DNA of 64,000 bases from Asterella californica. Lineage: Eukaryota > Streptophyta > Marchantiopsida > Marchantiales > Aytoniaceae. Shown piece by piece: positions 8,369 to 64,000 of this stretch; the first letter of the stretch is position 1; each line of letters begins with the position of its first letter. Position numbers and translations under genes: made by a program. Below the pieces are notes generated by a model. It was not told the DNA's origin. It searched no databases and worked only from the letters and a program-made list of their open reading frames with translations. The stretch lies in the NCBI GenBank assembly GCA_036924285.1, contig JAYKYS010000018.1, positions 2,852,001 to 2,916,000 on the forward strand, given 5' to 3'.

Positions 8369-9451
8369 TCATCCTTCTGTTTGTTCTTCTTCATCGTCAC
8401 TCTCCTCCGCCTCAGCCTCTTCAGTAGCCGAGTTGTCTTCGTCCCTTGGCATCCTCTGCTCAGACTCCAGAAAGTTGAACAAATCTACTGATCCTCCACG
8501 TTGTTTGAACAACTTCACGCGTTTGCCAGCCACAGATAGTTTTAAAGGAGTACCATCTAGCTCTCGTAAACTATAAGTGGCATTCTCATACACATCTAAC
8601 ACAACATAAAGCCCGAACCATCTTCGCGAGAACTTACGAAGTGTAGAATGCTGGTTCTTCAGCGTGCTATCATACACTAGAACCCAATCACCAACACGTA
8701 TTGGCTTTGGTCGTAGTCGATGAGTCTTGTCGAAACGTTCTTTGTTTCTGACTCGAGCCACCTTCAATTTCTCTTGCGCCTCAGCAAGATCCTCCTCCCT
8801 TCGCTCCAACTGCCTAGTTCGTAAAGCAAGGAGTGAAGTATGATCTATATCATCTTCCCACGGTAGCGTAGCCCACATAGGGAAGTCCTCCTCAGCAGGC
8901 ATGATCGGTTTCTGCCCCAACATAAGCTCAACTGGCATATACCCAGTCGTGGTACAGTGTGTAGTTCTATCAGCCCATAAAGCAAATGGAAGTAGTCTCG
9001 GCCATTCTCTAGGCCTACCATCACATGCTTTCACTAAAGCGTGAACAATAGAAAGGTGTCCTCGTTCACTCTTACCAATCCCTTCTGGATTCATGGCAGT
9101 AGTAAGTCGAAGCTTTACTCCATAACGAGCAAAGAACTCCTTCGCTTCTGCACCTCTCAACTCGCCCCTATCTGCTCGTAATCTTCCAACAGATCCATAA
9201 CGACAGATAATATCTTCCAGCACGAATCTACATATGTTCTCTGTAGTCTTCGTTCGCAGTGCTCGTCCCTCCACGTAGTTGGAGAGATCTTCTCGAGCTA
9301 ACACCAAGTAGCGCATCCCCCACAGTCCCGGCGGCATCATCACAAGATCAAGGACCCACGAAAAATGAATACTAGGTGGGTAGGTAGGTACAAGTCCATC
9401 TCTGTAACGGATTTTTAGAGTAGAACTGGCAGTGCAGACACGACCCAACAA
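8369..9451 (-). pseudogene. Gypsy integrase core and C-terminal part
   Basis: This 360-residue frame carries the integrase catalytic triad: D in the run SWVLDLV (about residue 35), D in LRADRGE (94) and E in GKSERGH (129), the last two 35 positions apart, as in D,D-35-E integrases. A C-terminal segment (KPIRVGDWVLVYDSTLKNQ through RRWFGLYVVLDVYENATYSL) resembles the gypsy integrase SH3-like tail. The protein ends with an acidic stretch. The preceding HHCC zinc domain is encoded in another frame: the last His pair lies at the end of the RT ORF. A CLHC pair appears after a TGA (9516) and a TAG near 9485, followed by a frame change near 9420. The family's integrase should be fused to RT/RNase H; here the fusion is broken. 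Confidence 0.88.
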
Positions 9452-9515
9452 AATCCACTACGTCTTGATACAAACCCTTCCACTAGTATCGCTCCTTCAT
9501 CTTCGTGTATGTAGC

Positions 9516-11969
9516 TCAAACTCCACGGTGTCCAGCCCACAAGGTGTCATGAAACTCCTTCAGCAGATTCAGCTTCGTCGGTTGATCATCCACTACTCTA
9601 GCCAACATCCCATCTCTTCTCTTTGGACGTTTCCACAGATAACCTTCACGTAGAAGGTAACCGTACGCTTTTCTTCTGATCTCCTTAAACTCTGCATCAC
9701 TCCAACCCTCTCGTCTGCATAATAAACTCAGATAATATCCGATATCGCGGAACTTTTTCGTGTAGATCTCCTCGTAGAACGGCAGTGGTTCCAAGTCTGA
9801 AGTGTGCTGACCAACTTGGCACCAAACGTCTCTCTTCTCTTCATTTTCGACTTCTGCAAACATCTCTTCCTCATCTGTATAACGAGCCCTAGATAACATG
9901 TCTGCAACAGGGTTATCCTTTCCTGCTATATGCTTCAGCTCAGGATTCATACTCCGGATATAAGCAATCCATCGTAGCATTGCTATGTCTGGAGTATTAT
10001 AGTTTGCTATCATACCTAGCAAAGGCAAATAGTCTGTTTCTAGTATCACACGAGCTCCTATCAAGAACTCTCGATCTACCTTCATAGCAGTAACAGCTCC
10101 CCACAACTCACGCTTCACTTGAGGATAGTTACGTTGTCTATCTGTTAAGATCCGAGCTCCAAATCTTGAAACAAACCGCACGCCTTCTGCATCTTCTTGA
10201 CCGACTGCCCATCCGATCGCTGTTGGACTCGTGTCAACAGTTAGTATGATAGGTCTTCCGCTCTCGTAGCTAAGTCTCCTTAGTACAGGTGAAGACTTCA
10301 AAATCTCTTTCAGCTGCTCCATCGTCTCGTGATGTTCTCGCTGCCAAGTAAACCTCTTCCCTTTTCTCAGAAGTGCATACAGAGGCTCGGCAATGTGTGC
10401 ATAATGAGGAATACTCACACGAAAGAACACACAAGCTCCTAAGAATCGTCGAACCTCAGTGATGTTGGTACAGTCTGCTATCCTTGCTATAGCATCTACC
10501 TTCTTTGGGTTCGACCGTCTTCCAAAAGTACCGCATAAGTGACCAACCACCACAATCTCTGACATTCCAAAACGAGATTTGGTACCTGACAGAGTGAGGT
10601 GTACCTCTTCTAAGCGCATCAGAATCTTCTCCACATCTCGGATGTGGTCTGCAACGAACTTTCTGCAACCATCAGCAGTCATAGTTTCGTTCTTGTCTTC
10701 CACCGGACAGCCTTTCATGGGTATATCATCAAGAAATGGGATAGTAACCTCAGGTACAAAGTCTCGTAACACCTTATGCATCGCGTTTTGCATATGAGCT
10801 ACTGAGTTTGTCGCACCCTGAGGAAGAGTACACATCCGCATCAACCCCAAAGGTGTACGCATGGTAGTCAAGTCTCTACTCTCCAAAGCAAGCTGAAACT
10901 GATCGTAACCTGAAAACAGATCTCCAATAGAATAGATAGATCTTCCAGCAAATGCCTCGGCTACTTCATCCACCACAGGTCCTGTCCCAACGTTTCGAAT
11001 CGTGATGTTGTTGGCAGGCTGCAAGTCTTGGATGAAGCATAAGGCTCCTGTCTTCTTAGGTACTGTGAACCATCGGCTAGAGTACGGAGCCATAGATGGT
11101 TCAAGAATACCCATCCGCATCCTCTCTTTCAGTAACTCAATGACCTTCGGTAGCAAGGCACGAGGGACTAGAATCGGCTTCAAGTCCCAAGGTACGTGAG
11201 GAACAGTGAAGATAACCATCGGAGCTATCACACTAAGATCCACACAACCAATCTCCTCAGCTGAGAAAGAAAATGCCTTACCATGGCTAACTATCATCTG
11301 CTCAAAAGCTCGTTTCTCCACTTCAGTCAAGAAGCCACCCCCTCCTATCTGGAGCTGCTCGAGTGTCTCTTGAGTAAACTCGTGTCCTATCTGTTTAAGA
11401 TCTCTCAGTACAGGCTCAGTGGCCGCTAACTCCATCTGCTGTCGTGAATCAACAGATAACTGGGTCGCCACTGGTTTCACCTTCTTCGCTACAGATTTGT
11501 ATTTGGTGTGAACCTCTGCTTCTTCACGAGAGCCACACCAGCAGATTGCATCCTTCCATCCACTCTCCAATCTCGGATGAGGACGAGATTGCAAGCACGA
11601 GGCAATCTCCTCATAGACCTTACGAGAGTGGATAGGGATCACCACCCTTCCTCCCATCTGCTCCATCATCCTATCTACATCATCCAGCCAACGAGCAAAA
11701 AGCTGTGCACCTACAAACTCCTCGTAAACACCAGAAATCATCTCACCTTCCTTCAGAACTCCTGTACAGCGCAGATCTGTTGTATACTTCTTCATCAGCT
11801 TTCTACTTTTCTCAGTCAGATCCTTTACACGCGTGAACTCACTCCAATCATCAGAACTAAAAGTCATCAAACCAGATTTCCAACTATGTACAGTGTAACT
11901 CCTCTCAGAATCTTGAGCAACCTCTTCATCAGTCTCCTGTGATCCCACAGGCTGCTCAAGCGGGATCAT
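9516..11969 (-). CDS. Gypsy pol: reverse transcriptase and RNase H
   Basis: 817 residues from the first ATG; the open frame continues upstream to the frameshift site at 12029. The RT region spans about residues 260-490 (FIQDLQPANN, LPQGATNS, active site FLDD at about 412-415, where most gypsy RTs have YIDD or similar). RNase H spans about 570-695 (LTVDTS, RELWGAV, KDNPVADMLSR). The end (FHDTLWAGHRGV) is the start of the integrase zinc domain, cut by a TGA at 9516. The N-terminal 250 residues are a linker with no domain I can name. The protein would copy the element's RNA into DNA in cytoplasmic particles. The core looks intact, so this is the best-preserved ORF of the nested element. Confidence 0.92.
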   Translation of the reverse strand: MIPLEQPVGSQETDEEVAQDSERSYTVHSWKSGLMTFSSDDWSEFTRVKDLTEKSRKLMKKYTTDLRCTGVLKEGEMISGVYEEFVGAQLFARWLDDVDRMMEQMGGRVVIPIHSRKVYEEIASCLQSRPHPRLESGWKDAICWCGSREEAEVHTKYKSVAKKVKPVATQLSVDSRQQMELAATEPVLRDLKQIGHEFTQETLEQLQIGGGGFLTEVEKRAFEQMIVSHGKAFSFSAEEIGCVDLSVIAPMVIFTVPHVPWDLKPILVPRALLPKVIELLKERMRMGILEPSMAPYSSRWFTVPKKTGALCFIQDLQPANNITIRNVGTGPVVDEVAEAFAGRSIYSIGDLFSGYDQFQLALESRDLTTMRTPLGLMRMCTLPQGATNSVAHMQNAMHKVLRDFVPEVTIPFLDDIPMKGCPVEDKNETMTADGCRKFVADHIRDVEKILMRLEEVHLTLSGTKSRFGMSEIVVVGHLCGTFGRRSNPKKVDAIARIADCTNITEVRRFLGACVFFRVSIPHYAHIAEPLYALLRKGKRFTWQREHHETMEQLKEILKSSPVLRRLSYESGRPIILTVDTSPTAIGWAVGQEDAEGVRFVSRFGARILTDRQRNYPQVKRELWGAVTAMKVDREFLIGARVILETDYLPLLGMIANYNTPDIAMLRWIAYIRSMNPELKHIAGKDNPVADMLSRARYTDEEEMFAEVENEEKRDVWCQVGQHTSDLEPLPFYEEIYTKKFRDIGYYLSLLCRREGWSDAEFKEIRRKAYGYLLREGYLWKRPKRRDGMLARVVDDQPTKLNLLKEFHDTLWAGHRGV

Positions 11970-11986
11970 AGTAGTAGCAGATCCAT

Positions 11987-12029
11987 CACTCTTGGTATCC
12001 CGTCCTACAAGAGTGGTTTCAGAAAACCC
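11987..12029 (-). promoter_or_regulatory. Candidate -1 programmed frameshift signal between gag-pro and pol
   Basis: On the minus strand the zero-frame codons AAG GGT TTT CTG contain the heptamer G-GGT-TTT (12029-12023), which fits the X XXY YYZ slippery pattern. A 7-nt spacer (12022-12016) is followed by a stem: CACTCTT (12015-12009) pairs with AAGAGTG (11993-11987) across a 15-base loop. Slipping back one base leads straight into the pol frame with no stop, while the zero frame ends at a TAG (12007-12005). A single-base indel of an originally continuous ORF is the alternative. Confidence 0.5.
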
Positions 12030-13609
12030 TTGCCCTCACAGATGGGAGAATCTCTCAAAGTCTGTCTGTTTCGTTCGTGGTTCGAACGAACGGTCAAAAA
12101 CTGCACAGAACGTCTATCATCTGGACTACGGATCCTAGCATAGTGAGATCCGTCGTCCATCACCTTCGTCTCCATTCTAACTGCCGTGATATAAGGCTGA
12201 CCAAGAATCACAGGATATGAAGCAGAAGATTGCACAAAGAAGTGCTGATCTACCTCCACATCACCCAACTTCACTCTCACGTTAGGACAAGCGCCGTATA
12301 ACTTACCCTTCTGGTTGTTTGCAGCTCGTAGCACCCAACCATGGTTTAGTTCGATAGACCACTGTCCTCTCTCGTACACCTCTCGTGACATGATGTTGAT
12401 CTCTGAACCTTGATCAACTAACGCAGCAACAGGTTCAAGACTTCCGAGACGAACTCGTGTAGCCGTCGTAGCACGAGCCCAGTGTCTCTTCCTGAAGTCA
12501 CTATCAGCAGCTGGACTCTCATCGCCAGCTTCATCATCATCGAATTCAGCAGTATTGGTACCAGCAACCAACGCTTCTTGCTGGTACTTTGTATCATCAG
12601 CCTCCTGAAAGTGCACCTTCCCGAATTTTGCATCATTAACAAAAGCTCCTACTACATCAATCATCTGACTTTTTACTTGCTCGGACATCACCTGTCTCTT
12701 CCGCTTGATGATGTCGATGATCAGCTCGTGAAACTCCCTCTTCGCAATACCAAGAACTTCTCGAAGAGAAAACTCGATTCGCGCGTCAAGTATTCTCTGC
12801 TCCAAGATGCTCTTGAGATCAGTTGAAGTCTCTATATCTGCTGCCAACTTGTAAGCCGGTCCCTTCCCCTTCTCTTGGGCAGTGAACCGTCTCCCAGCAG
12901 TAGTTGGCTCCTGCTGGGATCTCTGCACGTCCTCCATCGGACCTGGTGCAGGTGGAGGAGCTGCAGAAGTAGAAGGGATGTCTTCGGGAGGAGCTACTCG
13001 TCTCCTTGTGACTCTTCGTCTGTCGTCAGCCTCCTCCGGAACTCCAGTATCAAGTTCAGAGGCTTCTCGCCGTCTCTTCTCCTCCACAGAAGCATCCTGC
13101 CAGTGAACGTGTCTATCCACGTCCAATAATGCTTTGATAGACGCAACATCAACAAGATCTCCCCACCCTGTGACCCTACGGATAGTTTCTGCTCCTCTCT
13201 TCAGTACTTCAGAAGGAACTTGAACAGGTTTCTTCTCAGTAGTCCTATCTAGCAACGTAGGACTAGAAGAAACTTCAATGTGACCGGCATATACATCAGG
13301 ATTTACCGGTGGTGCCATCAATGCATGTACAGTTGCAGCAGCTGTAATCTGAGGTAGACTCCTCATGCCTCCTCGTCCAAACTGCGTGCTTAACGGCTCT
13401 CCAGTAGAAGAAAGGTGCAGCCTACCGTTCCGGTAGCGAACCACACCATCTCGCAGAGCAGCCGTGAGCTCTTGACAGTCCCCTCGGAAATGATCTTGAC
13501 TGTCACACCAGATACATCTACGAACAAGAGCACCTCCTGGACGTGCAGCAGCAGGCGCCGACGGCTGCTCTCTCTGCAGACCAGCTAACTCCACCTTCAG
13601 TTCTCTCAT
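12005..13609 (-). CDS. Gypsy gag C-terminus (CCHC) and aspartic protease
   Basis: 534 residues from the first ATG. The frame also extends upstream through an in-frame TAG (13631-13633) to about 13879. A zinc knuckle, CIWCDSQDHFRGDC (C-x2-C-x4-H-x4-C), lies at residues 32-45. A retropepsin-like segment lies near the C-terminus: AALVDQGSEINIMS, with D-Q-G where D-S/T-G is usual, and later VILGQPYI, the usual LG hydrophobic strand. The central third is low-complexity and charged. The ORF ends at a TAG 18 bases after the slippery heptamer. DQG in place of DTG also occurs in other gypsy proteases, so loss of activity cannot be concluded. Confidence 0.85.
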   Translation of the reverse strand: MRELKVELAGLQREQPSAPAAARPGGALVRRCIWCDSQDHFRGDCQELTAALRDGVVRYRNGRLHLSSTGEPLSTQFGRGGMRSLPQITAAATVHALMAPPVNPDVYAGHIEVSSSPTLLDRTTEKKPVQVPSEVLKRGAETIRRVTGWGDLVDVASIKALLDVDRHVHWQDASVEEKRRREASELDTGVPEEADDRRRVTRRRVAPPEDIPSTSAAPPPAPGPMEDVQRSQQEPTTAGRRFTAQEKGKGPAYKLAADIETSTDLKSILEQRILDARIEFSLREVLGIAKREFHELIIDIIKRKRQVMSEQVKSQMIDVVGAFVNDAKFGKVHFQEADDTKYQQEALVAGTNTAEFDDDEAGDESPAADSDFRKRHWARATTATRVRLGSLEPVAALVDQGSEINIMSREVYERGQWSIELNHGWVLRAANNQKGKLYGACPNVRVKLGDVEVDQHFFVQSSASYPVILGQPYITAVRMETKVMDDGSHYARIRSPDDRRSVQFLTVRSNHERNRQTLRDSPICEGKGFLKPLL

Positions 13610-13875
13610 CTGCCGAATCAGGTCTTCGATCTAGTTCTGCTGTCCATGGTTCTCCGCAGGTCTCTGAATCGGTGTCCTTTGTGCAGGGACTGGCACCACT
13701 GGTATCAAAAGTACTGCAGCCGGTACAACAGGTCTAGGAGCCAGAGGAGCTGGAGGTTGCTGTACTTGAGGAGCAGTGCGAGGTTGAGCGGTCACTTCTG
13801 CAAGCGGACGTCCTCCCACGGCCACTCTTCCTCGCCTCTGTCTTGTTAGTACAGCAACGGCGTTTCGACTCTTCC

Positions 13876-16534: not shown

Positions 16535-17661
16535 ACGCGCTTGCAACGATCAACGAATGCTACGAGAACAGTGTGGCAAGACATCTAATGTTCTGCACCA
16601 CGTCTAACGATGCATGGTCCACCTTGACAAGACACTTTGCTGGTCAAGACATGGTGACCAAGATGCACTTAAGAGAGAAGTTGCGGGTTTTAAAGATGAA
16701 ACCCAACGAGACTGTCACCCAGCATGTGAACAACTTCAAATCTCTCATCCAGCAGATGACTTCAGCTGGATTAATAATTACCAACGAGGAATAAGTCCTC
16801 GCGTTGATGGATAGCATGTCCAACAACTACTATTTATTCTTGCAGGCGATGAGAACAAACCCAAATCTCTCGCTATAGAATCTCATCACCTTCCTCATCC
16901 AGGAGGAAACGATCGGGCGCAAGTTATCGATGGAACCATCTACTGCCTTGTTTACAGGACGCCGGCAAGGAGGACGCAATGGTAACAACCGTCGCAACAA
17001 TGGTGGCAATCGACAAGACGGTAATCAAGCACCAAAAAGATCACCAGATCCTAACGAGAAATGTTTCGAGTGCAACAAGCTCGGACACTGCATCGCCGAG
17101 TGTCCGGACAAACCCAGCAGTAGTAACGAAAACTCAAATGCTGGTAATCAGAACAAGAACAAGAACAAGAATCGTCGTTCTCAGAACAACAACAGCAACA
17201 CTCGTCGAGTTCAGGTGGCACAATGTTCATCTACAATCATGCAGACATCTGATCCTAATTGGTGTGGACACGAGTGCCACACACCACATGACACATAATC
17301 GACGACAATTTGTCGAATACTCACTTGTCTCTACTGAGAACACTGAGAATGATGCGATTCTACTCGGTGACAACACCACCATCCACGTTGCTGGTTCTGG
17401 CATGGTGGAAGTGCGCCTGCTCAACGACGACCATGTGTACATACGTGACGTTTTCCATGTGCCCGTCTTGTAGAAGAATTTATTCTCAGCTCGGCAATTT
17501 GATGCCAATGGCGGCTGGTGCTTAATTGGCAACGGACTATGTCATCTAGAAGACAGATTTGGACAAATGCTAACTCCTTGTCCCACTGTCGACGATCTCT
17601 ACATGTTGGTTTTGATCACTGACCAAACCGCGCTTGTAACTATAGCTGATAGGACTCAGTA
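16535..17661 (+). pseudogene. Copia A gag C-terminus, zinc knuckle and protease
   Basis: The frame resumes directly after the gypsy element (NALATINECYENS), matching copia C. It reads through the run KMHLREKLRVLKMKPNETVT, a TAA at 16792-16794 and a TAG at 16876-16878, then a basic Asn-rich region and the zinc knuckle CFECNKLGHCIAEC. A frame change near 17250 leads to the protease-like DTSATHHMT, then GDNTTIHVAGSG and, after another TAG, NLFSARQFDANGGWC, all aligned with copia C. The element is then cut at 17661, before the integrase. It is a dead copy. Confidence 0.88.
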
Positions 17662-60002: not shown

Positions 60003-60690
60003 TGGAACGAGATGTTGTGAAGTGGACCTTTTCCATGGAAATTTTGGCTCACCCTGTTCTTAAGGGTGTTTCTTCAACTCGTGCTGTGGATATGTGCTTA
60101 CCTCTCCCGAACTACGAAGAATGGGACACCTTTTGGTCGCTGAAGCTCCGGATGGATGTTGGCATTAATGATGGAGCTGGTGCTAGTGCAGAGATTCATG
60201 CTTCTTGTTGGGGTGGTCTGCTTTAACGATAAGATGCTGGTCGTGTTCCGAAGAAGCTCCATGTTGATCTTGTTGGAATTGAAGATTGGTATGCTCTGCA
60301 CGTTCACTCGGAGACTATAGTGCGAACAATTCTTCAAGAGGTCGCTATCCTGTATCAATTCTGTCAGTGCTATCTCTAGTCATGCTGCCGAGCTTCCTGG
60401 TTTGTTTTTCCATGTCAGCGGTTCTAGGCAAACCATGCTTGATAGTATTAAGCTTGTTGAACATCAACCTCGGACCTTGAAGGAACTTGACTTTACAGAA
60501 ACTCAAGTTGTTGGTTCCATAGACAAGAACAGGATCCACAAAGAGGTCATTCGTCATTATCGTGTTCGCACTTCCATAACTATTAACCTTGATCAGTTCC
60601 ACATTGAGAAGCTCAAGAAAGAGGATTGGTTGCCTTATCAGATTCGTCAACTGAACGAGCATTTTGTTGATTTGCTCGTGGAGAAAATAG
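60003..60690 (+). pseudogene. Unidentified coding-like region, ending at the copia C LTR
   Basis: From the ATG at 60003 a frame reads MERDVVKWTFSMEILAHPVL, LPLPNYEEWDTFWSLKLRMD and stops at 60224-60226. After shifts another frame (from about 60390) reads GLFFHVSGSRQTMLDSIKLV, VVGSIDKNRIHKEVIRHYRV and LKKEDWLPYQIRQLNEHFVD up to the LTR start. Composition and flow look like protein, not random ORFs, but I do not recognise the family. It may be a gene fragment interrupted by copia C, or coding sequence of an unknown transposon. Confidence 0.4.
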
Positions 60691-60698
60691 TGCACATG

Positions 60699-60906
60699 TG
60701 TTAGAACTGGATGTACAGTATAAACATAACATACAGCAACTAGTTCAGACCTTTTGGGCTCATGCCCTTTCGCAGGCTTTGCCTGCCCTTGTACCAAAGT
60801 ATAAGTACCTGGCCTTTGGGCCTCCTACCTCATTATTATTCATTTCAGTAAACAAGCTTACACATACTTGGTCTCTCACATTGATCCTCTCTCTCCTTTT
60901 CCTATA
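60699..60906 (+). repeat. Copia C 5' LTR
   Basis: Starts TGTTAGAAC and ends directly before the primer site at 60907; about 208 bp. It has a tata-like stretch (aagtataagtacc, 60797-60809). The 3' LTR lies outside the window, so the ends are inferred from the primer site and the TGTTAG start shared with copia A. Confidence 0.75.
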
Positions 60907-60918
60907 TGGTATCAGAGC
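60907..60918 (+). promoter_or_regulatory. Copia C primer-binding site (initiator-Met tRNA type)
   Basis: TGGTATCAGAGC directly after the LTR, the same site as in copia B. Confidence 0.93.
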
Positions 60919-61085
60919 TACGGGTTGTTATTTTCCCAGCACAATAACGTAGGCTTCAGGTAGACCCTAGGCACAGGTGAAGGAGCAATCAGGGGACGCC
61001 TTGATTGCTAAAGCGCGAAGGACGCTTCTCGCTTAGACGATCGCAGCGCTCAATAGAACCTCAGTAGTTCAGCGATAAATCTGCG

Positions 61086-64000
61086 ATGGCGAACACGTTC
61101 AGCACTAAAGGCTGGGCAAAGTTCGATGGGACGTACTTCACGTACTGGAAACACAAGATGAAACTCCAGTTAGACGCTGAAGGTGTTCTCGGAATTGTCG
61201 ATGGTAGTGTACCTCGACCAGTAGCCACTGCCGCTAATCCTCTACCCGCCACCGGACCAGGTAGCATTGCGGAGTGGGATCGTCAGAGCAAGAATGCTCT
61301 GACGGCAATAAATCAGTGTTGCGAGAACACTGTTATCGGTCACATTATTTCTTGCCGCTCGGCAACAGAAGCTTGGAACACACTGACTTCTAACTTCGCC
61401 GCGCAAGACACAGTGACCCAGATGCACTTGAAAGAAAAGCTGCGAATGCTCAAGATGAAGGCGAACGACACAGTCACATCGCATGTAAACACTTTCAAGT
61501 CGATAGTTGAGCAGCTGGCGTCTGCAGGCGTACAAGTAGGCGCACAAGAGCAGCTACTCACACTCATGGGTAGCATGCCTGACAGCTACCAAATGTTCCT
61601 ACAAGTGATGAGATGCAACACCAATTTGACGTTGCAAGATCTCATCTCGTTTCTTCTCACTGAAGAAACTTTTCGTCGAAGAATGCAGCATGAACCTTCG
61701 ACCGCATTGTTTGCAGGAAAGAGGCAACCACCCAAGCAAGGCAAGAACGGCAACCGTTCTAAGAAGCGGACACCAGATTCCAACATTCAGTGCTTCGGGT
61801 GCAACTTAACTGGACATCGTGTCCAGAATTGCCCAAATCAAGCCTCAAGCAGCAGCGCTCCGCCCAATCAACCTCAGCAACAAGGCGGAAATCAGAAGAA
61901 CCGGAACCAGAAGAATCGCCAGCGCAACAACAACAACACTAGGCGAGTACTGATGACCCAGCTCTACAACGAATTTGCACCTCGAACCGTGGACCGTCAT
62001 TGGTACGTTGACACCGGCGCCACCCATCACATGGCATTCGACCGCGACCAATTTTGTAAGTACACTGAACGAGAAAGTGCTCTTCAAGATCAAATTCTCT
62101 TAGGAGATGACACTACAGTTCAAATTGAAGGTCACGGCGATGTTGAAGTTAAACTTCTTAACGGCGAAAACGTCTTAATTAAGGATGTCTTGCACGTCCC
62201 TGCACTACGGAAGAACTTGTTTTCAGCTCGAATGTTTGACTCCAAGGGTGGGTGGTGCATTATCGGTAATGGTACTTGCCATCTAGAGGACAAGAACAGA
62301 CGTCCAATTGCCCCATGCCCGCTAAGCAATGATCTCTACTTGCTAGGCTCGTCTGTAATCCCAGTGCACACTATTTCACTCCCGCAAGCACACAATGCCC
62401 AGCTGAAGGCAGAGCACTCCCAATCCCTGCTTCCAACAATGCCCCCTGAAACGCCCTCTCGGAAAAGACTGGGGGGTCCGGGAGGTGGCCGTGGTGGCAG
62501 ATCGACCAACCGTGGTCGACCACGGCTGATCCTCCCCTTACACCCCTTCGCACAGTCGCACTCAACTAACACAGTCGCATTCCCTGAAAATTCACGCATT
62601 CCTGCACCCTTTCTGCCACCGAATTTTGAGGGAGGCACGGATCGCCACGAGGGCGATCCGCGGCCCCAGGACCAAGGCACAAACCGCGATCCTGCACGGA
62701 ACCCCAACCGGCACGCCCCCCCATGGAGGGGCGATGCCCCTAAAGTCCAGGAGGGCACGGATCGCCACCAGGGCGATCCGTGCCTCGACCCTAACGGCAC
62801 GTCCCCCTATGGGGACGCGCCGCGCCAAGGGCACGGCCAGCCAGCCGGCCAACAGCCAGCCAGCCAAGGGGCGCGGCCCCACATGTGGGGCCACGCCCCC
62901 TCATCTTCCCGGGGCGGCCCCCAAGGCTGGGGCGCGAACCCCGGGAGCCTTAACTCCCTGAGCCCCGCTGCCCCCGCCCCTGGCACTCACCCCCCGAGCC
63001 CCGCCCCCCAACCCGCCCTTCTCGGAAGGGCGGCGGCGGCGGCCCCTAACCCCTCCCTTTTCGGAGGAGCTCCCAGCTCCTCGGAGCTGGGAAGCTCCCC
63101 CTTCGAGGGAGTCAACCCGCGCGGGGTTGACTCCCCTCACAGGGGAGGGACTGAAAGTCCCTCCCCCACAGGAGGAACCGTCCTCCCCCGTGGAGTACTC
63201 TCCATGGAAGTATCCTCTCACAGGAATGTTCTTTCCGGCATCATTCCCTTAGATGAAAATTTTTCTACAGATCTTCCAGCAGAAATTTTCGACTCAACAG
63301 TAGGCACTCTGCTTTCAGCTCGCCACACACACGGTGATGACTCATCCACTCCTACATGTCTTGCATCTACACCTTACATAGTCGATGAGTCCAACACACC
63401 TATTTCCACTCTTTACCGATCTGTCACCCGCCCGCGCTTTGCCTACCTTACATTTGCCACTCCTACCGCCGACCTCTGGCACAGGCGGCTTGGCCACATC
63501 AGTCTCACCCGGCTTGACCAACTCCGTCGCCATCAATCTGTTATTGGCCTAAATCTGCCCACTATTCACAATTTCACTTGCCCTCCGTGCTTGCATGGCA
63601 AGCAAGCCCGCACAAAATTTCCACGTGCCGCCACTACCCGCGCCACCGAAATTCTCGAAATTGTCCACTCTGACATCAGCGGCCGAATTTCCCCTTGCAC
63701 TTTTTCCGGCTATGAGTACTTCATGACCATGACCGACGACTACTCCCGTTATACCGTTGTCCGCCTACTGCACTACAAGAGCGACTGCTTTACAGCATTC
63801 AAGGAGTTTCACACTTTTGCCGAGCGTCAGACCGGCAAGAAGCTCAAGACCCTACGCTCCGACAACGGTGGTGAGTTCCGATCCACCCTCTTTGATGCTT
63901 ATTGTCAGGAACACGGTATCCAACGTCAGCTGACCGTCCCTGACACTCCTCAGCAAAACGGGGTAGCTGAGCGTAAAAATCGCACCCTCTTAAACTCTGT
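61086..64000 (+). CDS. Copia C gag-pol polyprotein (open to window end)
   Basis: The frame from ATG 61086 has no stop through 64000 (971 codons visible). Gag is at about residues 1-230 (KGWAKFDGTYFTYWKHKM; QMHLKEKLRMLKMKANDTVT). The zinc knuckle CFGCNLTGHRVQNC starts at 236 and protease WYVDTGATHHM at about 307. NLFSARMFDSKGGWC (about 377-391) and NDLYLLGSS (about 416-424) follow. A long insert then separates this from WHRRLGHISLTRLDQL (about 799), the integrase zinc pair (CPPCLHGKQ), HSDISG, TMTDDYSR, SDNGGEFRS and PQQNGVAERKN with D, D and E in place. RT and RNase H must lie beyond 64000. It is the same family as copia A, which lacks any trace of the insert as far as it can be read (it is cut just at that point). 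This is the only retroelement here whose visible coding part is intact, so it may be young. Confidence 0.95.
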   Translation, partial: MANTFSTKGWAKFDGTYFTYWKHKMKLQLDAEGVLGIVDGSVPRPVATAANPLPATGPGSIAEWDRQSKNALTAINQCCENTVIGHIISCRSATEAWNTLTSNFAAQDTVTQMHLKEKLRMLKMKANDTVTSHVNTFKSIVEQLASAGVQVGAQEQLLTLMGSMPDSYQMFLQVMRCNTNLTLQDLISFLLTEETFRRRMQHEPSTALFAGKRQPPKQGKNGNRSKKRTPDSNIQCFGCNLTGHRVQNCPNQASSSSAPPNQPQQQGGNQKNRNQKNRQRNNNNTRRVLMTQLYNEFAPRTVDRHWYVDTGATHHMAFDRDQFCKYTERESALQDQILLGDDTTVQIEGHGDVEVKLLNGENVLIKDVLHVPALRKNLFSARMFDSKGGWCIIGNGTCHLEDKNRRPIAPCPLSNDLYLLGSSVIPVHTISLPQAHNAQLKAEHSQSLLPTMPPETPSRKRLGGPGGGRGGRSTNRGRPRLILPLHPFAQSHSTNTVAFPENSRIPAPFLPPNFEGGTDRHEGDPRPQDQGTNRDPARNPNRHAPPWRGDAPKVQEGTDRHQGDPCLDPNGTSPYGDAPRQGHGQPAGQQPASQGARPHMWGHAPSSSRGGPQGWGANPGSLNSLSPAAPAPGTHPPSPAPQPALLGRAAAAAPNPSLFGGAPSSSELGSSPFEGVNPRGVDSPHRGGTESPSPTGGTVLPRGVLSMEVSSHRNVLSGIIPLDENFSTDLPAEIFDSTVGTLLSARHTHGDDSSTPTCLASTPYIVDESNTPISTLYRSVTRPRFAYLTFATPTADLWHRRLGHISLTRLDQLRRHQSVIGLNLPTIHNFTCPPCLHGKQARTKFPRAATTRATEILEIVHSDISGRISPCTFSGYEYFMTMTDDYSRYTVVRLLHYKSDCFTAFKEFHTFAERQTGKKLKTLRSDNGGEFRSTLFDAYCQEHGIQRQLTVPDTPQQNGVAERKNRTLLNS
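62510..63208. repeat. GC-rich in-frame insert built of consecutive hairpins
   Basis: Perfect or near-perfect inverted repeats follow one another: 62510-62525 (16-bp palindrome), 62638-62660 (9-bp stem), 62755-62783 (12-bp stem), 62800-62817 (7), 62875-62892 (18-bp palindrome), 62943-62958 (5), 63013-63033 (9), 63052-63067 (5), 63071-63092 (10-bp stem, 2-nt loop), 63107-63135 (12), 63131-63147 (7), 63142-63166 (11), 63171-63186 (6), 63193-63200 and 63201-63208 (8-bp palindromes). The ggcacggatcgccac hairpin is repeated at an exact 120-bp step (62634 and 62754), in frame. Hand counting gives 77% G+C for 62941-63000 against 40% for 62041-62100 in the same ORF. It lies between protease and integrase and encodes a Pro/Gly/Ala/Arg-rich stretch. 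Confidence 0.9.

Follow-up and report, generated by a model that had tools for sequence, protein, structure and literature searches.

A hairpin-rich, fast-changing block at the protease–integrase junction of a copia retrotransposon clade in Asterella californica

At the 3' end of a 64,000-nucleotide stretch of Asterella californica DNA (GCA_036924285.1, contig JAYKYS010000018.1, positions 2,852,001 to 2,916,000 of the forward strand; hereafter the window), we observed an array of perfect hairpins lying in frame within the gag-pol polyprotein of a Ty1/copia retrotransposon, in the linker between protease and integrase. Three families of the clade carry different hairpins at this one spot, which suggests that the join between coat protein and copying enzymes is the site of either an uncommon control element or a hotspot of mutation. 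We propose from the sequence comparisons, with a probability of about 0.38, that the block is a fast-evolving RNA hairpin array that would act as a structured junction between gag-protease and pol and limit the translation of pol in this clade. Our slight lean toward function comes from the fact that hairpins recur at a single junction in three families whose sequences there differ, together with a UGA codon at the edge of the block in one of them.

The hairpin array and its host element

Between positions 62380 and 63240 we placed 11 non-overlapping perfect stems of at least 6 bp, against a mean of 2.7 and a maximum of 6 in 200 dinucleotide shuffles. Seven perfect stems reach at least 8 bp (8, 9, 9, 10, 11, 12 and 13 bp, with loops of 2–5 nt), whereas 300 dinucleotide shuffles of 62440-63219 gave a mean of 0.31 and a maximum of 2. 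Repeat finding over 62200-63400 returned 20 inverted pairs, some of them imperfect, overlapping or beyond the block. The array described in the first-pass annotation of this DNA is therefore real, and its count of about fifteen inverted repeats, many with perfect 9-12 bp stems, needs correction to these figures. The G+C content of about 77% given there holds for the highest 300-nt window and falls to 71.7% over 62621-63200, while the remainder of the frame, put near 40%, is in fact at 49.0% (61086-62380) and 51.3% (63241-64000).

The array also folds far better than shuffled controls, a comparison that the annotation had proposed. The minimum free energy of 62440-63220 is -414 kcal/mol against -330 ± 7.9 kcal/mol for dinucleotide shuffles (z -10.6; 0 of 20 as low), and the z score is -7.3 against 12 in-frame shuffles that preserve both the protein and its codon usage. 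Windows of 120 nt with starts from 62686 to 63086 give z scores of -2.1 to -6.1. Because the block beats both kinds of shuffle, neither composition nor the encoded peptide accounts for its structure. Two 120-nt windows in the gag region fold beyond their shuffles as well (61586-61705, z -5.5; 61186-61305, z -3.8), so that locally the block is not the sole structured part of the frame. An Rfam scan of 60600-64000 returned nothing at the curated threshold, its one match having an E value of 0.57 and 20.6 bits against a gathering score of 80.

These folds bear on an explanation at the level of the protein, in which the element wants a flexible Pro/Gly/Ala/Ser-rich spacer between protease and integrase and the hairpins simply follow from its composition. 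The open frame of the best copies and the proline-rich translation fit such a spacer, but the structure does not survive shuffles that preserve the codons (z -7.3 in the window's family, -3.7 to -21.4 in the sister families B and C described below), and the linkers of several young copies are out of frame. We consider this explanation quite improbable.

The host is a young Ty1/copia long terminal repeat (LTR) retrotransposon on the plus strand (Table 1). Its two LTRs differ by 1 mismatch in 209 aligned bases, the 3' copy lying beyond the window at G000:C81:2918616-2918824 (blastn); a 5-bp target-site duplication, ACATG, can be read at 60694-60698 and again past the 3' LTR; and a primer binding site, TGGTATCAGAGC, which we take to be of the initiator tRNA-Met type, is in place. 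The Pfam domains follow the copia order of gag, protease-side barrel, pre-integrase and integrase core, with reverse transcriptase recognizable next by eye in the translation. The annotation had the frame open from 61086 to 64000, and it runs on past the window to a first stop at 64749, within the next Pro/Ser-rich linker of pol, so that this copy is interrupted once and not intact. Equally well founded was the remark that the linker is unusually long: it spans 369 codons with no stop, whereas four copia proteins taken from the database devote roughly 20-40 residues to it (by eye). In an ordinary copia element on the minus strand of the window, the protease and integrase matches are about 160 bases apart, against about 1.2 kb in the family of the window copy, which we call family A.

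Related copies and turnover of the block

The whole genome (516.7 Mb on 773 contigs) was searched for related copies, with 40 of 164 candidates scored in the linker search, 150 of 2355 in the protease search and 150 of 2619 in a third search; together these gave the protease, integrase and linker matches used below. Family A has at least 40 linker copies on this basis. We fetched 40 and kept 38, dropping L010 and L015, which have no integrase anchor; L001 is the window's own copy. The 38 linkers measure 930-1244 nt, 6 of them are stop-free, and 19 have a length that is a multiple of three. In 37 there are more 8-bp stems than in any of 30 shuffles of the same linker, with L038 tying, and the number of such stems ranges from 1 to 10 per copy. 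L001 itself has fold z scores of -14.5 and -7.3 against 12 dinucleotide and 12 codon shuffles, respectively. Of the properties that the annotation had wished to see checked in other copies, the presence of the insert and its variable hairpin number are borne out, but a length that is always a multiple of three is not.

The annotation had further inferred a foreign, hairpin-propagating sequence that colonized the linker. The single-hairpin genome search covered the hairpin GGGAGTCAACCCGCGCGGGGTTGACTCCC, which matches 87 places when 3 or fewer mismatches are allowed; its reversed control matches none. By hand count, 78 of the 87 adjoin protease, integrase or linker matches and 6 more precede sequence of the same element, placing 84 in copies of one copia family; the 3 others are left undecided after 181 bases each. 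The palindromic elements of Rickettsia and the GC clusters of mitochondria are short palindromic or G+C-rich units, in or between genes, that have spread to many unrelated loci. A dispersed palindromic mobile element of this type was considered and rejected, since GGGAGTCAACCCGCGCGGGGTTGACTCCC is confined to one element family apart from the undecided matches, and a roaming foreign element is unlikely. Whole hairpins do come and go among copies, as either invading mobile hairpins or misassembly would have it, but besides the distribution of GGGAGTCAACCCGCGCGGGGTTGACTCCC there are 38 linkers on many contigs, 37 of them hairpin-rich. Both versions are largely refuted and by now scarcely credible.

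Two sister families have structured linkers at the same point. Family B is about 72% identical to A in protease, and among the matches listed 13 copies have a 559-residue open frame; family C is about 64% identical, with 4 copies among the matches listed having open frames of 1897-1900. Family B was sampled at 12 loci, with 11 linkers measured (L085, in which no integrase start was found, is left out of the linker table), together with the older relative L079 and 13 short sequences from around the stop described below; family C was sampled by 3 linkers. The linkers first examined, three from each family, combine great length and high G+C with more structure than their shuffles, and their perfect stems of at least 8 bp number 2-11. 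Against 12 shuffles each, the three B copies have z scores of -4.8 to -9.9 (dinucleotide) and -3.7 to -9.8 (codon), and the three C copies -9.6 to -25.6 and -9.3 to -21.4, the codon shuffles being less meaningful in frame-broken copies such as L074 and L076. L079 is weaker, with 1 stem and z scores of -3.4 and -6.9. BLAST among the linkers (2 A, 2 B and 3 C copies) found one 41-base match at 80% between A and B and none for the other two pairings, whereas under the same settings the protease DNA of all three families aligns at 65-81%. Blocks at the same point with almost no common sequence fit local evolution within one copia clade. A protein search for linker-bearing relatives gave 4 distant matches and no near relative in another species. 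The best match of a separate search, P0001 (a database protein of 439 aa, contig 2524; 34% identity), ends about ten residues before the start of the linker, perhaps at an assembly break in a variable, structured linker of another species. In the window itself, a decayed family C-like copia at 16700-17650, running from gag to the protease side by eye, breaks off just 5' of the expected G+C-rich block and is followed by other sequence.

Clusters of hairpins are typical of retroviral packaging signals, and a long stable structure within the genomic RNA could likewise serve here, with gag reading the hairpins or with dimer linkage being promoted. However, the A, B and C blocks share almost no sequence and individual A copies have anything from 1 to 10 stems of 8 bp, which is unlike a recognition site; a role in packaging or dimerization is improbable.

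The block turns over much faster than its surroundings. In family A, differences per site average 0.129 in the block (near-gap columns dropped) against 0.062 at protease third positions over 703 pairs, and the mean number of gap columns per pair is 144.5 against 1.1 in protease. Between young copies, hairpins are gained or lost as whole units: the 99 gap columns that separate L001 from L002 in the block consist of an 81-base hairpin stretch and an 18-base tandem copy. The pattern is sharper in family C, in which alignment inside the block is uncertain. L072 and L073 differ at 46 of 741 positions before the block region (6.2%), 257 of 812 inside it (31.7%, plus 213 gap columns) and 12 of 437 after it (2.7%), and L072 and L074 at 5.1%, 34% and 5.6%; L072 and L073 are both hairpin-rich despite their diverged cores. 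By BLAST, C linkers match at 87-93% at their starts and 73-78% in their tails, with just short displaced pieces between, and among the 40 of 132 candidates scored for the block of L072, 7 match it in full length at 94-100% and the others in part. The block is thus a mutational hotspot, yet hairpins stay abundant in it and the best copies of A and C have no stop there.

At 62757-62784 of the window lies a perfect hairpin whose 5-nt loop reads as its reverse complement in L008, L029 and L031, a mark of copying or recombination across the palindrome. This is the sole loop inversion found, and 1 of 50 gap segments of at least 12 nt resembles an inverted copy of its own neighbourhood. Difference clusters with a reverse-complement match of at least 9 nt in some copy number 50 of 763 in A and 0 of 22 in B, figures that have no chance control and to which we give no weight. 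Across the 38 A copies, the bases in hairpins fall as the terminal branch lengthens (Spearman -0.46, p 0.004, with two branches inflated, probably by inserts), indicating that palindromes decay after insertion and are seemingly not maintained by the host genome.

Three further observations concern individual copies. In L036 the counterpart of hairpin 62751-62787 has given way to CCCTAAA-type repeats resembling telomeres, as though the palindrome had broken and been repaired with telomeric sequence. In L035, a run of at least 20 G, from slippage or assembly error, stands in place of hairpin 62711-62735. The young copies L001-L006 look mosaic, the haplotype of the linker after the block uniting L002 with L006 and L001 with L004 and L005 while the block indels group otherwise, a pattern as from recombination during reverse transcription.

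A palindrome hotspot without function is the strongest rival to a structured junction and almost equal to it in likelihood. On this view the linker would tolerate almost any in-frame sequence, and the array would be a by-product of template switching and slippage during reverse transcription, which make and perfect hairpins in a self-reinforcing manner, as hairpins provoke more switching. The block's twofold excess of differences over protease third positions, its gap columns, the loop inverted in three copies and the loss of hairpin bases along terminal branches all speak for it. The coding palindromes of Nematomorpha are discussed in like terms (PMC6649704). The hotspot leaves unexplained, however, why different arrays occupy the same junction in three families and why family B conserves a UGA with a hairpin, and with a single loop inversion and a single gap segment resembling an inverted copy, the birth of a palindrome was not caught.

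A conserved UGA and the case for translational control

Family B has an in-frame UGA at the 5' edge of its block in 22 of 26 copies and UAA or UAG in 0; the remaining 4 have AGA (2), AGT (1, in a doubtful alignment) or could not be aligned (1). The codon CGC directly follows the UGA in 19 of the 22. The older relative L079 keeps the UGA though it differs from L081 at 53 of 366 protease sites. In L081 and L075 an 11-bp hairpin starts 4 nt 3' of the UGA, and the corresponding values in the L076 fold are 10 bp and 5 nt; folds of 101 nt around the stop have z scores of -2.6 to -2.8. In 3 of 11 B linkers the UGA is the only in-frame stop. A precedent for such an arrangement is Tca2 of Candida albicans, a Ty1/copia element of gag-UGA-pol organization in which RNA structure follows the UGA (PMC2194720). 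The in-frame stop of Tca2-type readthrough is present in family B and lacking in the window's family A copy (0 stops in 369 linker codons). The UGA and hairpin of family B suggest a readthrough-like signal, beyond which protein would still be made, and conservation of the UGA at the block edge favours translation control.

A stop at the block edge followed by a variable frame and long open pol frames could also arise if the block were an Ogre-type intron between gag-protease and pol, removed by splicing, and both Ogre and Bianca have separated open reading frames (PMC6317226). However, 6 of 38 A and 2 of 3 C linkers are stop-free, and in these copies, picked as stop-free, the open frame exceeds chance (shuffle P ≤0.001), which an intron does not need. 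Splicing is accordingly a highly unlikely explanation.

In the structured junction that we favour, the array would act at the RNA level during translation. Ribosomes finishing gag and protease would run into stable hairpins, in family B into a leaky UGA plus hairpin, and just a fraction would continue to integrase and reverse transcriptase, yielding a high ratio of gag-protease to pol. Stability and an open frame would suffice; with no particular sequence required, the array would be free to turn over fast, by slippage and template switching in reverse transcription, while staying hairpin-rich. In its most specific form, as a sequence-independent, self-renewing attenuator within a polyprotein whose hypervariable hairpins set the ratio of gag-protease to pol and to which the B lineage adds a leaky UGA, the proposal is doubtful.

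A first parsimony contrast seemed to show constraint on the stems, with an internal/terminal ratio of 0.26 in stems against 0.42 in other block columns (p 0.03 and 0.01 when split by CpG). Since these stems had been chosen as widely conserved, we suspected ascertainment bias. Several results then weigh against function. With stems defined from copies outside the tested clade, the ratios are 0.69 against 0.62 (p 0.88) and 0.33 against 0.35 (p 0.79); the effect vanishes once the bias is removed, and we do not claim stem selection. Compensatory changes, which the first-pass annotation had proposed as a check, were sought in family A and number 0 on internal branches, and L036, which holds an unrelated insert, accounts for all double changes that the last replicate lists. 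Changes to G-U as opposed to breaks (15.0/47.3 on internal branches, 56.3/171.3 on terminal ones) show no internal excess. Families A and C have no stop and hence give no direct sequence support for attenuation. In the three B copies that are open after the UGA, which are related and were chosen as open, the shuffle P is only 0.01-0.03, and L082 owes its open frame to offsetting indels. The length departs from a multiple of three in 19 of 38 A linkers and in 4 of 11 from family B, and some of these belong to young copies whose pol frame is open over a long distance. The junction of Tca2 itself was insufficient for readthrough in yeast (PMC2194720).

In favour of function, unpaired positions have pair-restoring changes at 9.6/10.7 on internal branches, but at 12.3/15.3 on terminal branches as well. 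Gaps that are multiples of three make up 12 of 24 shared and 23 of 61 private gaps (Fisher p 0.33), so that frame selection on indels is not supported, and the codon positions of the block differ little (internal/terminal 0.35, 0.32 and 0.43, stem columns included). The small contrast among codon positions, the outcome of the unbiased stem test and the internal branches free of compensatory changes are further points for the functionless hotspot. The annotation's alternative of a structured RNA used by the retrotransposon, be it in translation control, pausing or packaging, stands as regards structure beyond shuffles and the conserved UGA of family B, and falls short as regards selection on stems.

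To our knowledge, it is often unclear how single-ORF (open reading frame) plant copia elements achieve an excess of gag. A structured junction between gag-protease and pol, if true, would be a testable answer, and the UGA of family B would allow a direct comparison within one genome; retroelements need more gag than pol (PMC2194720). If the array is functionless, its dozens of copies of different age still make it a good natural system for the birth and decay of palindromes.

Elsewhere in the window, a large gypsy element occupies 8369-13630 on the minus strand, its pol sharing 73% identity with a protein from the liverwort Riccia sorocarpa.

Table 1. Features of the copia element at the 3' end of the window
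Feature	Position	Strand	Basis or remark
5' LTR (TGTTAG...CCTATA), 208 bp	60699..60906	+	blastn of window against downstream DNA
Primer binding site TGGTATCAGAGC, immediately 3' of LTR	60907..60918	+	sequence
gag-pol open reading frame, still open at window end	61086..64000	+	open reading frame and downstream translation
gag domain PF14223	61158..61682	+	hmmscan E 5.6e-33
Pol_BBD domain, protease side, PF22936	62001..62249	+	hmmscan E 2.6e-23
Whole linker, protease-side segment to LWHRRLGHI, 1107 nt	62367..63473	+	stop-free, in frame
Hairpin-array block, 71.7% G+C, C-skewed	62621..63200	+	composition and folding
Hairpin, 9-bp stem, 5-nt loop	62638..62660	+	
Hairpin, 13-bp stem, 5-nt loop	62754..62784	+	loop ACCAG becomes CTGGT in L008, L029, L031
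Hairpin, 8-bp perfect stem, 2-nt loop	62875..62892	+	longer imperfect stem 62868-62899
Hairpin, 9-bp stem, 3-nt loop	63013..63033	+	
Hairpin, 10-bp stem, 2-nt loop	63071..63092	+	missing from a number of copies, the deletion ends varying
Hairpin, 12-bp stem, 5-nt loop	63107..63135	+	doubled in several copies
Hairpin, 11-bp stem, 3-nt loop	63142..63166	+	
GAG-pre-integrase domain PF13976	63456..63605	+	hmmscan E 1e-10
Integrase core PF00665, runs on further	63699..63950	+	hmmscan E 1.2e-9

Comparison with known systems

The first-pass annotation knew of no described copia feature of this kind, and our searches of open-licence PubMed Central papers showed none. The byp elements of Magnusiomyces mitochondria are palindromic inserts that are left untranslated, whereas the best A and C copies are stop-free through the array, which would speak against bypassing. 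Both the byp elements, as palindromic inserts in coding sequence, and the Rickettsia palindromic elements are mentioned in an account of Nematomorpha mitochondria (PMC6649704). The coding palindromes of Nematomorpha resemble the present array in being perfect inverted repeats within translated genes with dynamic gain and loss. They differ in that, by the same account, their arms encode conserved residues and reach up to 284 bp, while here the stems are 8-13 bp long and lie in an unconserved linker of a nuclear retrotransposon, where the codon positions of the block vary almost alike.

Among retrotransposons, Bianca (copia) and Ogre (gypsy) are similar in having a special region at the boundary between gag-protease and pol that is taken as a means of expression control. 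Their intervals average 172 and 274 bp, respectively, that of Ogre being an intron (PMC6317226), whereas the linkers described here span 0.9-1.3 kb, are rich in hairpins and, in the best copies of A and C, free of stops. Tca2 has its stop between gag and pol, while that of family B comes after gag-protease and before integrase and family A has none, and a hairpin array is not noted in the sections consulted of the Tca2 account (PMC2194720). What Tca2 has in common with sister family B is an in-frame UGA combined with RNA structure in a copia element.

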